Part shown: positions 1 through 5,002 of the stretch, in pieces
Layout of the letters: each line of letters begins with the position of its first letter
Numbering within the stretch: the stretch's first letter is position 1
NCBI GenBank assembly: GCA_025450255.1
Contig: JANWHV010000260.1
Span: 1 to 5,002 of the forward strand
Direction of reading: 5' to 3'
Length of the DNA stretch: 5,002 nucleotides
Origin: Chloroflexota bacterium
Lineage (GTDB): Bacteria > Chloroflexota > UBA5177 > JANWHV01
The notes under the pieces: generated by a model
Told to the model about the DNA's origin: nothing
The model's input: only the letters and a program-made list of their open reading frames with translations
Databases searched by the model: none
Translations under genes and position numbers: made by a program

Positions 1-339
1 ACCACGCCGGTGCCTACCGCGATTATCTGCGCCACCGACATTATCGCCATCGGCGTCCGTTTGTATCTGGAGCGTTCCGGTATCTTGAAGAGCGGACGGA
101 TCGCCATTGCCAGCTATGACGATACGCCGGTGGCGGAGGCACTTGACCTCACCTCGGTCCACCAGCAAATCGACGTGATAGCGCGCACCGTCGCCGATAT
201 GTTGATAGGCGAGATCCGGAGCGCGCCCGTGCCGGAGCGCCACGTCCTCGTCGCGCCGCGCCTTGTCGTACGCGCGAGCAGCCTCGGCGCCAGGGCCAGG
301 CATGAGATAGATTCCCGCGCGGGTGGCGCCCGAGCCTGA
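1..339 (+). CDS. LacI/GalR-family transcriptional regulator, C-terminal part (5' end outside window)
   Basis: Only the last 112 codons are present; the frame is already open at base 1, so this is a window-edge truncation and not a broken gene. The visible part is the C-terminal half of the periplasmic-binding-protein-like effector domain. It contains PTAIICATDIIAIGV, the usual 'P-T-A-hydrophobic-A-x-(N/T)-D' segment of LacI proteins, then ASYDDTPVAEALDLTSVHQ, the family's 'G/S-F/Y-D-D ... L-T-x-V-x-Q' segment, and the closing VAPRLVVRASS strand. The DNA-binding head is not visible. It is closely related to the convergent complete regulator next to it: about 65 of 92 aligned residues are identical by hand count. 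The two stop codons are only 10 bases apart. It probably controls another sugar gene set to the left, which is an inference. The effector is unknown. Confidence 0.9.
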   Translation, partial: TTPVPTAIICATDIIAIGVRLYLERSGILKSGRIAIASYDDTPVAEALDLTSVHQQIDVIARTVADMLIGEIRSAPVPERHVLVAPRLVVRASSLGARARHEIDSRAGGARA

Positions 340-664
340 GGCCGCCGGCCTACCGCGCCGGGGTGTCCACCCGATCGGACACGCGTGCCCCGCCGCCGCT
401 GCTGGAACGCACCACCAGGCTGGGCGCGACCAGGATATGCTTGGCGGGCGCCGGGATCCCCTGAATCTTACCGATAACCAGATCCGTGACGGCGCGGGCG
501 ATATCGTCGATCTTCTGGTGGACGGACGTCAGATCGAGGGCCTCCGCCACCGGCGTGTCGTCATAGCTGGCCACCGCCACGTCCGCGCCGATCAGCAAAC
601 CGGCGCTCTCCAGATAGGCGCGGACGCCGATGGCGATAATGTCGGTGGCGCAGATAATCGCGGT
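16..664. repeat. Inverted repeat: 44-bp perfect arms at 16-59 and 621-664
   Basis: Bases 16-59 are the exact reverse complement of 621-664. Both arms encode TAIICATDIIAIGV in the two convergent LacI paralogues. Similarity continues outside the arms but with many synonymous changes. For example, the block encoding ASYDDTPVAEALDLTSVHQ differs at 7 of 19 codons although the protein is identical, while the 14 complete codons in the perfect arms show none. The repeat arises from a tail-to-tail paralogue pair; the patchy identity suggests local gene conversion (inference). Confidence 0.85.
339..351. terminator. Short GC hairpin between convergent genes, weak bidirectional terminator candidate
   Basis: AGGCC GCC GGCCT forms a perfect 5-bp stem with a 3-base loop across the 10-base gap between the two convergent stop codons and touches both stops. 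There is no T-run on either strand, so it is not a classical intrinsic terminator. The location is where a shared terminator would be expected, but the stem is short and such hairpins occur by chance in GC-rich DNA. Confidence 0.25.
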
Positions 665-1531
665 TGGGCGTGGTATGCGCGAACGGAGATGCTCCGCCGC
701 TTTCCTGGCATTCAGTACATCATTCGGCGTCCGGATCAGCAAGCCCGGCAGCGCGTCGATGCCGGCGGCGCGCAGCGCCTCTCTATAGCCCTCGACGCGG
801 ATGTCGCCGACCACCGTTCCCTCGAGCCATCCGAGCATGGCGATGCGTGTGTGGCCTTGCGCCCGCAGGTGTTCCACCACCAGGCCGATGCCGCGCTGCC
901 CGTCGTCGTCCGCGAACGGGAAGTCCCAGTCGATATTTGAGCGGCCAAAGCAGGCGAAGGGGAAATCCAGCTCAAGCAGCCGCCGGATGCGCGGATCGTG
1001 GTAGGTGGTATCGGAGAGCACGAAGCCGTCGACGCGGCTGGTGCGGATCAGGTCGGTATAGCTCTGTTCTTCGTGCGGTCCGGATTGGGCAAAGGTAAGC
1101 ACGTGGTAACCGTTCTGCTCCGTGGCCTGGGCGACCTCGTACAAAAAGCGGTCGAGCACCTGGTTGCGCTGCACCACGTCGTGGACCCGGTGCCAGGCAT
1201 AGCCGATCATGCGCGTCTCGCTGGCTTTCAAGTTTCGCGCCGTGCTGTTCGGGCGATAGCCAAGGGCCTGGATGGCCGCGTTCACCTTATGGCGGGTTTT
1301 CTGCTTGATCAGCGCGCTATCGTTGATCACGTACGACACTGTCGAGACTGAGACGCCCGCGAGCACGGCGACATCCCTGATCGTGACGCGCAGCGTATAC
1401 GCCTGATCGGCCGCGGCGCGCCGCACGCGGTCGCCCACCGCCGCGGCCACGGCGGACGGGTCGGTCAGCGCGGCATAGGCGGTCAGTAGCGGCACCCCTG
1501 CCTGTGCGGACACGGATCGCAGGCTAGACAT
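350..1531 (-). CDS. LacI/GalR-family transcriptional regulator with an extra N-terminal HTH-like domain
   Basis: This 393-residue protein is a probable sugar-responsive repressor. A canonical LacI DNA-binding head lies at about residues 49-97 (TIRDVAVLAGVSVSTVSYVIN, then the helix ending LGYRPNSTAR), followed by the hinge (about 98-107) and the effector domain. That domain shows DDDGQRGIGLVVEHLRAQGH (208-227), GYREALRAAG (248-257), PTAIICATDIIAIGV (289-303) and ASYDDTP (321-327). Residues 3-48 align gaplessly with 50-95 (R5/R52, V7/V54, AGV 11-13/58-60, T17/T64, D24/D71, V36/V83, A39/A86, Y45/Y92), so they look like a second, degenerate HTH. Without them the protein would be 345 residues, the normal family size. 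The ATG at 1529-1531 was chosen because GAGGGA lies 5 bases upstream of it; a farther in-frame ATG at 1577-1579 has no ribosome binding site and lies upstream of the predicted transcript start. Autoregulation and control of the divergent importer operon are likely, inferred from position and operators. Confidence 0.92.
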   Translation of the reverse strand: MSSLRSVSAQAGVPLLTAYAALTDPSAVAAAVGDRVRRAAADQAYTLRVTIRDVAVLAGVSVSTVSYVINDSALIKQKTRHKVNAAIQALGYRPNSTARNLKASETRMIGYAWHRVHDVVQRNQVLDRFLYEVAQATEQNGYHVLTFAQSGPHEEQSYTDLIRTSRVDGFVLSDTTYHDPRIRRLLELDFPFACFGRSNIDWDFPFADDDGQRGIGLVVEHLRAQGHTRIAMLGWLEGTVVGDIRVEGYREALRAAGIDALPGLLIRTPNDVLNARKAAEHLRSRIPRPTAIICATDIIAIGVRAYLESAGLLIGADVAVASYDDTPVAEALDLTSVHQKIDDIARAVTDLVIGKIQGIPAPAKHILVAPSLVVRSSSGGGARVSDRVDTPAR

Positions 1532-1536
1532 TTCAT

Positions 1537-1542
1537 TCCCTC
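1537..1542 (-). promoter_or_regulatory. Ribosome binding site of the complete LacI-type regulator
   Basis: On the minus strand this reads GAGGGA, 5 bases before the ATG at 1531-1529. It decides the start: the upstream in-frame ATG (1579-1577) has no purine-rich sequence before it. Confidence 0.7.
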
Positions 1543-1550
1543 GGCGCCTA

Positions 1551-1579
1551 TTGACGAGCCAATAGTCGTAGTGTAGCAT
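1551..1579 (+). promoter_or_regulatory. Sigma-70-like promoter candidate for the importer operon
   Basis: TTGACG (1551-1556) is a near-consensus -35, followed by a 17-base spacer and TAGCAT (1574-1579), which matches 4 of 6 bases of the -10 consensus. The predicted start, near 1586, falls inside the first operator (1584-1595), which is a classical repression arrangement. It gives a leader of about 147 bases before the binding-protein gene. Identified by eye only. Confidence 0.5.
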
Positions 1580-1596
1580 GTGTTGTAACGTTTCAA
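1570..1596 (-). promoter_or_regulatory. Promoter candidate for the LacI-type regulator, with extended -10
   Basis: Read on the minus strand, TTGAAA (1596-1591) serves as -35 and TGCTACACT (1578-1570) is an extended -10 (TGn plus TACACT). The spacer is 15 bases, short of the optimum, but an extended -10 can compensate. The -10 overlaps the -10 of the opposite promoter by two bases, and the -35 and spacer overlap the first operator, so the regulator is probably autoregulated. Confidence 0.45.
1584..1595. promoter_or_regulatory. LacI-type operator candidate 1 (TGTAACGTTTCA)
   Basis: A 12-bp near-palindrome with half-sites TGTAAC and TGAAAC around a central CG, the typical architecture of LacI/GalR-family operators. 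One base breaks the symmetry; the flanking T and A extend it by a further pair. It covers the predicted start of the importer transcript and the -35/spacer of the regulator promoter, so one bound repressor could block both directions. Confidence 0.7.
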
Positions 1597-1624
1597 AAGG
1601 AGGAAAATAGGCAATATCGGTGGC

Positions 1625-1636
1625 TGTAACGTTACA
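1625..1636. promoter_or_regulatory. LacI-type operator candidate 2 (TGTAACGTTACA)
   Basis: A perfect 12-bp palindrome with central CG, matching the LacI/GalR operator pattern. It lies about 40 bases downstream of the predicted importer transcript start. It could act as a roadblock or as a second binding site for cooperative binding with operator 1. Confidence 0.75.
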
Positions 1637-1720
1637 AAGGAGGAATTAGCGCGCTGTCCGTTGCTCGGGTCGAAGCTTGCCCATTTGGGCAGGCGGCTGT
1701 ACACACGAACAGATTCCGAA

Positions 1721-1727
1721 GAGGGGG
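1721..1727 (+). promoter_or_regulatory. Ribosome binding site of the solute-binding protein gene
   Basis: GAGGGGG lies 5 bases upstream of the ATG at 1733. It favours this start over an in-frame TTG at 1661, which would add 24 residues ahead of the Tat signal. Confidence 0.7.
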
Positions 1728-1732
1728 CCACG

Positions 1733-3142
1733 ATGACCGATAATCACGCGCCGAAGACGTCGCTAAGCCGACGTTCGTTCGTCCTCAAGACCGCCGCGAC
1801 CGGCCTGGCCGTCGCCGGCGGCGCCGATCTTATTCGTTCGCTAACGTCGCCAAGCGCCGCCGCGGCCGCCTCGCGCGCCGCCTCGGGCACCACGTTCACG
1901 CTTAACGATATGCCCGCGCCATCGGACAAAGTGAACGTCACCGCCTTCAATCTCACGGTGTCACGGTTTGAAAAAACCAACCCCTCGATCAAGGTAATCG
2001 GCAAAACCGATACCTTCGACCCCACCACCTTTTACGCGCACTACGCGGTCGGCAACGTCGAGGACACCTATAAGGTCTATTTCACCGACGTTCAGCACCT
2101 TATCCAGCTTGGCTACGCGAAAGACATCTCCACCTACGTCAAGGGCTGGCAGTACTACTCCAGCATCGCGCCCGGCGTGAAGCAAATCATCAGCGACGCC
2201 AGCGGCAAGATCTACGGCCTGCCGGTCGACGGCTACGCTCTTGGCCTGGCCTACAACAAGAAGCTTTTCGTGGCCGCCGGCCTCGACCCCGACAAGCCGC
2301 CGCTTACCTGGACACAATTCAGGCAGTATGCCAAGAAGCTGACCGACGCGAGCAAGGGCCGCCACGGCTTCGCGCCTCTCAGCCTGTCCAATACGGGCGG
2401 CTGGCATCTCACCGCCATGATCTACAGCTTCGGCGGCCAGCCGCAAATCGTGAAGAACGGCAGAACGCTCGCCAACTTCAACGACGCGCATGGCGTTCAG
2501 GCGCTGCAATTGCTGCGCGATATGCGCTGGGTCGACCAATCCATCGGCCCCAAGGAGATGGGGTACAACGACAATACCGCGGCGCTCGCCAACAACTCCA
2601 TAGCCATGGGTATCCTCGCCGGCGATCAGCCTCGCTTCTTCAAGACCCAATACCAGGCGGACCTGAACGACTTTATCCTGGCCGGTTTGCCACAGGGCGG
2701 CGGCAACGCGACCCTTACCGGCGGTGATGTCCAGCTCGTCAAGCCCAACGCCACCGAGGCGATCGCCGCCGCCGCCCTGGAGTTCACCGAGTATCGCTAT
2801 TTCGATCTGCCGTCCTGGGAAGCAAGTGACAAGGCGCAGGTCGCCGGTGGCGGCGCGGTCGGCATCCCGGCGAACATTGCATACGGCGGCGCCCTCAAGA
2901 AGGCGCTTGACGCCATCGACGCGAAGTACGCTAACGTTCCCACGCAAAACTATAAGTTCTTCGTGCAAGCGAACAATACCCTGAATCTCAGGCCGGAGCC
3001 CCGTATACAATCGCAAAAGATGTACGCGCTGCTCGACACCTGCGTGCAGGCCATCCTGAGTGACAAGTCGGCCAACCCGAAAGCGCTCCTCGACAACGCC
3101 GCCAAACAATTCCAGGTCATTCTGGACGCCGCCAAGTCGTAG
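1733..3142 (+). CDS. Carbohydrate ABC transporter substrate-binding protein (family 1), Tat-exported
   Basis: This 469-residue extracytoplasmic solute-binding protein captures a sugar or sugar derivative and delivers it to the permeases encoded downstream. The N-terminus has a textbook twin-arginine motif, SRRSFVLK (residues 12-19), a modest hydrophobic stretch (20-31) and an Ala-rich region (about 42-50) where signal peptidase I could cut. No lipobox cysteine is present, so the mature protein seems not to be lipid-anchored. Family 1 hallmarks are YGLPVDGYALGLAYNKKLF (161-179), the following AAGLDPDKPPLTWTQFRQYAKKL block (W193) and YSFGGQ (231-236). Length is normal for the family. The ligand cannot be inferred. 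It is first in the operon, behind the operator-bearing leader, with a hairpin after its stop codon. No frameshift or internal stop is seen. Confidence 0.93.
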   Translation: MTDNHAPKTSLSRRSFVLKTAATGLAVAGGADLIRSLTSPSAAAAASRAASGTTFTLNDMPAPSDKVNVTAFNLTVSRFEKTNPSIKVIGKTDTFDPTTFYAHYAVGNVEDTYKVYFTDVQHLIQLGYAKDISTYVKGWQYYSSIAPGVKQIISDASGKIYGLPVDGYALGLAYNKKLFVAAGLDPDKPPLTWTQFRQYAKKLTDASKGRHGFAPLSLSNTGGWHLTAMIYSFGGQPQIVKNGRTLANFNDAHGVQALQLLRDMRWVDQSIGPKEMGYNDNTAALANNSIAMGILAGDQPRFFKTQYQADLNDFILAGLPQGGGNATLTGGDVQLVKPNATEAIAAAALEFTEYRYFDLPSWEASDKAQVAGGGAVGIPANIAYGGALKKALDAIDAKYANVPTQNYKFFVQANNTLNLRPEPRIQSQKMYALLDTCVQAILSDKSANPKALLDNAAKQFQVILDAAKS

Positions 3143-3145
3143 CGC

Positions 3146-3165
3146 GCCGGCATGCACGTGCCGGC
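3146..3165 (+). other. Intergenic hairpin between binding-protein and permease genes
   Basis: GCCGGCA (3146-3152) pairs perfectly with TGCCGGC (3159-3165) around a 6-base loop. It starts 4 bases after the binding-protein stop codon and ends just before the AGGGGGAG ribosome binding site of the permease. No T-run follows, so full termination is unlikely. In known sugar operons such as malE-malF, structures in this gap help keep binding-protein mRNA more abundant than permease mRNA; the same role here is an inference. Confidence 0.55.
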
Positions 3166-3183
3166 AGGGGGAGATAGGCCACG

Positions 3184-4134
3184 GTGACGGCGTCAGAGCG
3201 GAGTATGCAATCGGGGCCGATTCCGGAGCCGCGCAAACCGCTCGCCGCGCGGCTCCGTCGTGGAGTCGCGCGCAACACCGCGGCCTATCTCTTCCTGCTG
3301 CCCGCCCTGGTCACCTACGCGCTCTTCGCCTGGTTTCCGATCTTCAAGGGCTTCTTGCTCAGCTTCCAGAACGTGAACCTGGACCCCAATGGGTCGAGTC
3401 CCTGGGTGGGATTCGATAACTACCGCGCGCTTTTCGCCGATCCATTGTTTGGACAGGCATGGCGCAACACGATCCAATTCACGGTGTACGCCCTGGTGCT
3501 CGGCTACCTCATCCCGCTGACGCTGGCCCTGGCGCTGAACGAAGTGCGGCACGGCCGCGCCTTCTTCCGCGCCGCGTTCTACCTGCCGGTCATTTTACCG
3601 CCCCTGGCCAGCGTTTTTATCTGGCAGTGGTTCTTCGACCCAGACCCCACCGGCTTCTTGAACGAAGTGCTGGGCTGGGTCGGCATTGGCCCGCAAGAGT
3701 GGATTTCCGATCCCGGCCAGGCCATGGGGAGCCTGGTCGGCGTGGCGACCTGGGCCGCCGCGGGCGGGACCATGCTGATCTACCTCGCCGCGCTCCAGGG
3801 TATTCCCGCTCACCTCTACGAGGCGGCGGAGATCGACGGCGCGTCGCTCTGGGGACGGCTCTTTCACATCACGCTGCCGCGGCTGCGCGTGGTCATGCTG
3901 ATTATGCTGGTCTTGCAAATCATCGCCACCATGCAGATCTTCACCGAGCCGTACGCGCTGACCCAGGGCGGCCCCGCCAATGCCACGATTACCGTGATGA
4001 TCTTGCTCTACACCACGGCCTTCGGCTACCAGGAATGGGGCCAGGCCAGCGCCCTCGGCGTGGTGTTGTTCTTCGTGCTCGCGTTCTTTTCCATCGTGTA
4101 TATCCTGGTTACCCGGCGCTTCGCGCGCGGCTAG
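3184..4134 (+). CDS. Sugar ABC transporter permease, MalF/UgpA-type
   Basis: This 316-residue inner-membrane subunit of a binding-protein-dependent importer (CUT1-type) pairs with the permease encoded next. It has a basic cytoplasmic N-terminus and about six membrane segments (roughly 34-56, 96-118, 132-150, 183-205, 234-256, 288-310). The EAA loop that docks on the ATPase reads EAAEIDGASLWGRLFHITLP (213-232), with the expected Glu-Ala-Ala, Gly and Leu-Pro. The QGGPANAT stretch (261-268) is also typical of this subunit class. Start: GTG at 3184 with GGAG about 10 bases upstream. An ATG at 3205 is possible and would remove 7 residues, but its own upstream signal is too close. It lies 41 bases after the binding-protein gene and is probably cotranscribed with it. 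MalF-like short form, without the large periplasmic loop of enterobacterial MalF. Confidence 0.93.
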   Translation: MTASERSMQSGPIPEPRKPLAARLRRGVARNTAAYLFLLPALVTYALFAWFPIFKGFLLSFQNVNLDPNGSSPWVGFDNYRALFADPLFGQAWRNTIQFTVYALVLGYLIPLTLALALNEVRHGRAFFRAAFYLPVILPPLASVFIWQWFFDPDPTGFLNEVLGWVGIGPQEWISDPGQAMGSLVGVATWAAAGGTMLIYLAALQGIPAHLYEAAEIDGASLWGRLFHITLPRLRVVMLIMLVLQIIATMQIFTEPYALTQGGPANATITVMILLYTTAFGYQEWGQASALGVVLFFVLAFFSIVYILVTRRFARG

Positions 4135-4188
4135 ATCGCCTGTTAGCCCGCATGCGAGCCCCAAGTTGACGAACGGGATCGAAACAGC

Positions 4189-5002
4189 GTGGCGGTACAG
4201 CGCGTGATATTCCCGGAGCCGCGAGAACTGACCACGCGGATCCGTGCCCGGCGCCGATCGGAACGCGCCGAGGAGCGAACCCTGGTCTCGCCGCTCGAGC
4301 GACGGCGTCCCTCGGTGCGAATCGGCTACTGGTCGGTTTTCACGGTGCTGTTGTTGCTCACGCTGACCACCATCGTCCCCCTGTACTGGCTATTCACCGA
4401 CGGCCTGAAGTCGTCGATCGAAATCGCCACGCTGCCACCGACCTGGGTGCCGCAACATCCGAACTGGAGCAGCTTTCAACAGACCTGGGATCTGCTCAAC
4501 CTGGGCAAGTATCTCGGCAACACCCTGATCCTGGTGGCGGGCTCCTGGGTATGCCAGGCGTTGGTGTCGGTCCTGGCGGCCTTTTCGCTCTCCAAGCTAC
4601 GCCCGGCCTTCGGTAACGTCGTGCTGGGGTTTTTCCTGCTCACGCTGCTGGTGCCGCCCGTTTCGTACTTGATTCCACAGTATGTGAACGTCTCCAGCCT
4701 GCCGTTCGTGCACTGGAACATTGGCAGCGGCACCTACGCCTACCTCGGCGTGCTGCTACCGGAGGCCGTAAACGCGTTCAATCTGTTCCTGTTGAAGAGT
4801 TTTTTCGACGAAATCCCGGATGAGATCATCAACGCGGCGCGCATTGACGGCGCCAATGCTCTTGGCTTATTGCGATGGATTGTGCTGCCCATGTCCCGGG
4901 CGGTGCTGGCGGTGATCAGCATTCTCACGGTGATGGCCTCCTGGAAAGACTTCCTCTGGCCCTACGTGCTGTTGCAATCCGATTACGAGCGCATGCCGCT
5001 CA
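4189..5002 (+). CDS. Sugar ABC transporter permease, MalG/UgpE-type (3' end outside window)
   Basis: The second membrane subunit of the importer; 271 codons are visible and the frame is open at the window end. Membrane segments fall near residues 48-69, 112-132, 144-165, 183-203 and 237-256. The EAA loop is NAARIDGANALGLLRWIVLP (215-234), and ASWKDFLWPYVLL is the typical post-loop segment of MalG-type permeases. The start is uncertain. An in-frame stop at 4144-4146 sets the limit and no ATG precedes the first membrane segment; GTG at 4189 (weak CGGGA upstream) is preferred, with GTG 4204 as an alternative. From 4189 the cytoplasmic tail before the first membrane segment is about 44 residues, rich in Arg and Glu, longer than is usual. 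The gap to the preceding permease is 54 bases with no terminator seen, so cotranscription is likely. Confidence 0.9.
   Translation, partial: MAVQRVIFPEPRELTTRIRARRRSERAEERTLVSPLERRRPSVRIGYWSVFTVLLLLTLTTIVPLYWLFTDGLKSSIEIATLPPTWVPQHPNWSSFQQTWDLLNLGKYLGNTLILVAGSWVCQALVSVLAAFSLSKLRPAFGNVVLGFFLLTLLVPPVSYLIPQYVNVSSLPFVHWNIGSGTYAYLGVLLPEAVNAFNLFLLKSFFDEIPDEIINAARIDGANALGLLRWIVLPMSRAVLAVISILTVMASWKDFLWPYVLLQSDYERMPL

Follow-up and report, generated by a model that had tools for sequence, protein, structure and literature searches.

The stretch of DNA analyzed here, 'the window', comprises 5,002 nucleotides of a Chloroflexota bacterium (contig JANWHV010000260.1, positions 1 to 5,002, forward strand). 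It carries a gene for a LacI/GalR-family regulator in which the DNA-binding head is present twice in tandem and, divergent from it, genes of a sugar ATP-binding cassette (ABC) transporter (Table 1). The two heads, each of the helix-turn-helix (HTH) type, are called HTH1 and HTH2 in the order of the protein chain. The start of the regulator gene at 1531 agrees with the homologues and is preceded, 7 nt upstream, by GAGG; an alternative in-frame ATG, at 1579, would give a protein of 409 aa. For the substrate-binding protein we chose the ATG at 1733; the list of open reading frames (ORFs) opens this frame at TTG 1661.

Table 1. Features of the window
Feature	Coordinates	Strand	Basis
Regulator of the LacI/GalR family (393 aa) with two LacI heads in tandem and a sugar-binding domain	350..1531	-	ORF, Pfam, homologues, structure model
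First head of LacI type (HTH1), degenerate, residues 3-48; helices predicted at 4-11, 15-23 and 30-42	1388..1525	-	
HTH2, canonical LacI head, residues 50-95	1247..1384	-	Pfam PF00356, 74 bits (residues 49-100)
Hinge region, residues 96-104 (Ala98, Leu101)	1220..1246	-	mostly pLDDT (predicted local distance difference test) <50 in DNA-free model
Effector-binding and dimer domain, ~residues 105-378	398..1219	-	
Promoter-like site TTGACG-17-TAGCAT, for transporter operon, operator A right after	1551..1579	+	consensus match only; 0.2 expected by chance
Predicted operator A, TGTAACGTTTCA, just downstream of the promoter-like -10	1584..1595	.	pattern match
Predicted operator B, TGTAACGTTACA, a perfect palindrome; distance to operator A 41 bp	1625..1636	.	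pattern match
Sugar ABC transporter substrate-binding protein, divergent from regulator, probable target	1733..3142	+	SBP_bac_1, 63 bits
ABC transporter permease, UgpA/MalF type	3184..4134	+	below equivalog cut-offs
ABC transporter permease, UgpE/MalG type, cut at window end	4189..5001	+	below equivalog cut-offs

An earlier note, made from the sequence alone, had described two tandem LacI-type heads, the first degenerate. We recomputed its ungapped alignment of residues 3-48 with residues 50-95 at an offset of 47 and found the same 10 identical residues of 46, with a BLOSUM62 score of 34; when HTH1 was shuffled and the best of seven offsets was taken each time, the mean score was -7.8 (SD 8.6), and 34 was reached by one of 20,000 shuffles. 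The note had placed the first head at 1387..1525; the residue range holds, but the start coordinate had to be moved to 1388. Scored separately with the Pfam LacI family (PF00356), as the note had suggested, residues 49-100 passed the cut-off of 27 bits with ease, but residues 1-48 fell below it (16.9 bits, E 0.0057, model positions 2-44 of 46); LacI was the sole Pfam family listed for the latter. In relatives HTH1 exceeded the cut-off in all 10 cases tested (31.2-44.5 bits). Among solved structures, residues 1-48 matched the LacI regulator 3bil best at the sequence level (E 2.1e-4), and an AlphaFold2 model of residues 1-50 alone adopted the three-helix fold of a LacI head. Ranked by VIA-align Z, the first 35 chains matching this model were all of the LacI family; Foldseek gave weak E-values (best 0.18) with a probability of 0.99-1.00 in the top rows, and a search of the viral library gave no result relevant to HTH1.

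Beyond the heads, Ala98 and Leu101 of the hinge are present by sequence, at the HTH2 offset of 47. The sensor domain scored 107.1 bits with PF13377, and its predicted fold resembles solved LacI-family sensors; fold searches with the full model bear mostly on residues 49-386, and residues 385-393, at the C-terminus, are modelled as disordered. By head, hinge and sensor the regulator belongs to the LacI/GalR family, departing from its usual single N-terminal head.

In a homologue search 7998 candidates were scored, 1278 of them at E <= 0.001. Among the best 120 of these 1278, the window protein included, 109 have both heads complete, seven begin within or after HTH1 and four are fragments; for P0033 and P0079, counted among the 109, both heads were read from the sequence, HTH2 having been missed by the automatic pattern. 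Six of the seven late-starting homologues retain remains of HTH1; in the seventh, P0008, HTH2 is preceded by a stub of only 18 residues. Here HTH1 may have been lost secondarily, or the start may have been called too late; the longest contig given for P0008 (17356) is as long as that of P0013, a protein with both heads. The N-terminal extension, for which the note had proposed a search, is shared by homologues, which do not start at about residue 49. The sequence and the predicted fold agree with the 109 two-headed homologues among the 120 listed, and we regard the presence of two tandem LacI heads, the first degenerate, as supported.

The tandem heads were followed through genomes as well. 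Eight of 12 loci on genome contigs match the regulator from residue 1 (one of the loci, L005, comes from a record titled Bacteroidetes; its genome was placed in the same order as that of G003, titled Anaerolineae). Six genomes yielded 173 LacI-like matches, of which eight, at least one per genome, start at model position 1; the remaining matches listed start at position 18 or later, many at 41-51. The wider surveys differed in cut-offs, overlapped in samples and kept top candidates only (at most four per genome in the phylum sample), so their counts are lower bounds. In a 400-genome sample of the phylum of G001 (Chloroflexi), 20 genomes had a match at E <= 1e-90, four of them tandem. All matches were tandem in the class of G001 (6 of 158 genomes) and in the order of G315 (4 of 82). 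The order of G003 gave 31 matches in 28 of 154 genomes, 28 of them starting at 1-2; the three late starts are explained by contig ends (G514, G529) and by masked bases (G487). The class of G198 had matches in 15 of 199 genomes, one tandem and 14 starting at 37-50. No listed match spans both heads in the two further phyla searched (those of G822, 296 genomes, and G821, 198 genomes), where the furthest N-terminal reach among the matches listed was model position 17. Sixteen loci of these phyla were given for upstream reading; the head was not picked up in L121 and L138, and in the other 14, the position-17 row included, no second LacI head was read. Independent tandem heads in these two phyla, the only other ones searched, were dropped as a candidate on the best-scoring matches listed, which fall short of proving absence. 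The tandem-headed regulators were found in Chloroflexota, and related single-headed regulators begin at HTH2.

Among 70 heads placed in a tree, the 25 HTH1 rows were set apart by a branch supported at 100/99, to be read with the tree's 47 columns, unsettled bootstrap, long-branch warnings and midpoint root; the HTH2 rows fell beyond that branch, together with LacI heads of single-headed regulators. The rows were taken from 19 of 108 proteins, from six loci and from 15 single-headed rows, with near-copies dropped. The ratio of nonsynonymous to synonymous substitution rates (dN/dS) was 0.06-0.31 for HTH1 in 11 pairs (one of 12 was undefined, and some dS values were saturated) and 0-0.13 for HTH2 in 12 pairs; in 10 of 11 pairs the HTH1 value was the higher. 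Given these values, HTH1 is very probably translated and under purifying selection, more loosely than HTH2.

What selection has retained was counted in 108 aligned proteins, in LacI numbering (11 partial proteins and P0050 were left out of the 120 listed). The conserved columns of HTH1 are L6, V9, A10, A13, V15, L24, V38, A42 and Y47. Other positions of the family have changed: Ser21 is Tyr in 100 and Phe in five proteins, Val20 is Ala in 102, Ser31 is Asp or Glu in 90, and Asn25 is retained in nine. At the junction of the heads, Pro49 is Leu in 103. The parts of PMC2978694 consulted tie GalR residues 15, 16 and 20 (LacI 17, 18 and 22 by our own mapping) to operator bases and hinge Leu54 to the operator's central CG, the LacI/GalR hinge having a conserved Ala and Leu at GalR 51 and 54. 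These features and the hinge are in order in HTH2 and not in HTH1; a hinge helix cannot follow HTH1, because HTH2 begins directly after it. As far as its residues tell, HTH1 lacks most of what a working DNA-reading LacI head has.

The window itself contains two predicted operators between the divergent genes, both centred on CG. With at most one mismatch the operator pattern has four matches (two sites, on both strands), while 0.03 are expected per window. Both sites are followed by AAGGAGGAA, at 1597-1605 and 1637-1645, one base further from the core at operator A than at operator B. This element resembles a ribosome-binding sequence; no fitting start codon was seen. It may belong to an operator duplication or represent an element of the flanks.

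Operator-like sites were also sought near the genes of relatives. A palindrome scan found one in 17 of 32 upstream regions of tandem-headed genes, and direct reading added six more (L009, L064, L066-L069). The remaining nine have no near-gene site; three of them (L001, L005, L006) have one before the transporter operon, a TTTGWAACGTTTYAAA-like site, not perfect in every case, and six (L002, L003, L043-L045, L062) showed no operator-like site even when longer stretches were included. The ORF filter of the longer-stretch scan presumably hid operator A and the L108 sites, which are visible in other scans, and gene extraction found no gene in L065, L050, L021, L022 and L030. Other tandem-headed regulators are preceded by TTAAACGTTTAA, TGAAACGTTTCA or TTTTGAGACGTCTCAAAA, and the sites of single-headed relatives, of similar length, are TTAAACGTTTAA, TTGAAACGTTTCAA or GCGAACGTTCGC. 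The predicted operators are ordinary CG-centred LacI palindromes for tandem- and single-headed regulators alike. Single-headed regulators, too, can have paired sites nearby (L049, L113).

One clade permits a comparison of HTH1 with the operator. In 13 loci (L070-L080, L082, L084) every upstream region has GAGACGTCTC; as the sites were chosen by this exact seed, invariance is built in at +/-5 but not at +/-6 and +/-7 (L083, L085 and L086, of the same HTH2 type, were left out, having no start found or a contig end). HTH2 positions 17, 18, 19, 21, 22, 25 and 29 are invariant in all 13 loci. HTH1 position 22 varies (H6 Q3 R2 N1 L1), as do positions 19, 25, 29, 34 and 35; those remaining hydrophobic are 17 (M12 I1), 18 (L12 M1) and 21 (F11 Y2). 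Flanks were compared on the side away from the promoter, the downstream flank being occupied by promoter elements; in 10 non-redundant sites of the 13 they held no motif, averaging ~0.3 bit beyond -12 against a small-sample value of ~0.2. With the operator core fixed, the reading positions of HTH1 varied and the compared flanks blank, HTH1 most likely does not read bases in this clade; to carry the result over to the window's own group is an extension.

Two further observations were made in the same clade. The HTH2 recognition helix is altered (VAKGTVSYALN or VGKGTVSYALN), and with it the operator core, which reads GAGACG in place of GAAACG; this natural pair bears on the LacI recognition code. 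A second GAGACGTCTC site lies upstream of the regulator in L077, L082 and L084, at 56, 55 and 56 bp from the first.

We favour, at slightly better than an even chance, the following account: the regulator is a repressor of the sugar transporter in which an ancestral duplication doubled the head, HTH2 works on DNA, and HTH1 has been repurposed for protein contacts. Computation supports the tandem heads, their fold, their single origin, the purifying selection, the loss of contact residues and the ordinary operators. A single tandem duplication of the N-terminal head would have taken place in an ancestor belonging to Chloroflexota. With HTH2 and the hinge, a dimer would occupy the palindromes at 1584-1595 and 1625-1636 and block the transporter promoter, probably along with that of its own gene; sugar bound in the C-terminal domain would end repression. 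Neighbour genes in relatives code for GH31 glycosidases (L002, L005) and GH65 family enzymes (L004, L007, L009), and for this reason alpha-glucosides may be proposed as the effector, a guess. HTH1 would have kept its three-helix fold, lost most of the family's DNA-reading features and been retained for protein contacts, be it to HTH2, to the other subunit or to a second dimer; the hydrophobic positions on its former recognition helix and the fixed junction Leu hint at such contacts. One could speculate further, with rather more doubt than belief, that the recognition helix of HTH1 (hydrophobic at 17 and 18, aromatic at 21) was turned into a protein-docking helix. The duplicated head would then serve as a module of regulation or assembly, fixed a single time in Chloroflexota and maintained across a deep clade.

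Several observations weigh against this account. Thr19, a phosphate contact in LacI, is retained in HTH1 of 82 of 108 proteins. The net charge of HTH1 averages -1.7 but ranges from -6 to +4, with +2 in the window protein, and overlaps the range of 21 single-headed control heads (mean +1.2); charge as a proof against DNA binding was dropped, since the overlap and the value of +2 leave DNA contact by HTH1 possible. Position 17 is hydrophobic in HTH2 too, in most of these proteins. As HTH1 evolves faster than HTH2 in nearly all pairs, the variation at its free positions may be due in part to generally loose constraint, which weakens the clade argument somewhat, and a weak or passive role of HTH1 is possible. 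Both window operators share the flank AAGGAGGAA, and the effector and operators are predictions.

The note had inferred that a dimer with four HTH units could read a longer or double operator. HTH1 as a working DNA-binding head, its flank contact specific or not and the footprint longer or tighter, seems unlikely to us. The preserved fold, the frequent Thr19, the charge of the window protein, the common right flank AAGGAGGAA and the flanks of the ITQ clade, A/T-rich to ~+/-9, speak for it; but HTH1 has no hinge, Ser21, Asn25 and Ser31 are mostly replaced, position 22 varies under a constant core, and the upstream flanks of the 13-locus clade are near noise (n=10). A longer operator finds no support in these flanks or in the comparison with single-headed loci, where predicted operators have a similar length and core and paired sites occur as well. 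The note's other suggestion, in which the first copy no longer reads DNA and serves protein contacts, agrees better with the data, the contacts being conjectural. A specific form of the favoured account would have HTH1 hold dimers together at paired operators, either as tetramers or as cooperative pairs, in place of the C-terminal helix by which Escherichia coli LacI tetramerises. The disordered C-terminal end, the hydrophobic patch at 17/18/21 and the second sites, at 41 bp in the window and at 55-56 bp in three loci, are in line with this; yet these spacings differ in helical phase, most tandem-headed upstream regions have one site or none, and single-headed regulators have paired sites too, and we consider it doubtful.

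HTH1 could also be a nearly neutral, slowly decaying remnant of the duplication, most decayed in the window's own group, where the Pfam score is low in P0001, the window protein; the stub of P0008 would fit this picture and is a further point against a retained function. The low dN/dS, the conserved core, Tyr21 and Leu49 fixed across a broad set and the complete HTH1 in most homologues listed make it improbable. That the start is mis-annotated, the protein beginning at HTH2 and residues 1-48 being untranslated, is hardly credible: some relatives have in-frame GTG or TTG codons at residues 43-49, but homology, predicted fold and purifying selection extend over HTH1, and the window has no ATG, GTG or TTG codon between residues 37 and 55.

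At positions 1-339 of the window, on the forward strand, we saw the C-terminal part of a second, similar regulator, convergent with the one at 350-1531. Over 106 aa the fragment shares 66% identity with P0001, and over 111 aa 77% with P0024, a two-headed protein; P0002 is 88% identical to P0001. For P0002 and P0024 alike the longest contig given has 8979 bases, so the convergent regulators may be conserved as a pair.

With LacI, GalR, PurR, CcpA, CelR and RbsR the window regulator has in common the canonical head, the hinge Ala/Leu and the periplasmic-binding-protein-like domain; a sugar-transporter target and a CG-centred palindromic operator, both predicted here, add to the likeness, and the extra degenerate, hinge-less head before the usual one sets it apart. 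The LacI-family regulator 3bbl of Chloroflexus aggregans has a solved sensor domain; its heads are not comparable, since the alignment begins at residue 63 and the chain has 281 residues. Related sensor domains occur in single-headed regulators of the classes of G198 (L046, L047, L087-L098) and G190 (L049), with matches beginning at 37-50 of the 384-position model, about at HTH2, and similar operator cores, TTAAACGTTTAA or TTGAAACGTTTCAA, where looked for. AraC/XylS regulators such as MarA have two HTH units per chain, both able to enter the major groove; they belong to a different fold family, and HTH1 of the window regulator seems not to read DNA. Our literature search, over portions of open-licence papers, found no description of tandem-headed LacI proteins; the portions of PMC4052901, on LacI regulons including those of Chloroflexi, mention tandem sites but not tandem heads, and those of PMC3870299 do not mention tandem heads.

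The variant goes unnoticed because named homologues carry ordinary LacI-family names, and operator predictions based on the first head would mislead. LacI is a textbook repressor, and one head per subunit has been taken for granted. A natural clade with doubled heads reveals what becomes of a surplus DNA-binding domain joined to the original one, and it allows the conversion of an HTH into a protein-contact or allosteric part to be tested; the docking-helix reading, if true, would represent a new control of cooperativity or inducibility in LacI-family repressors.
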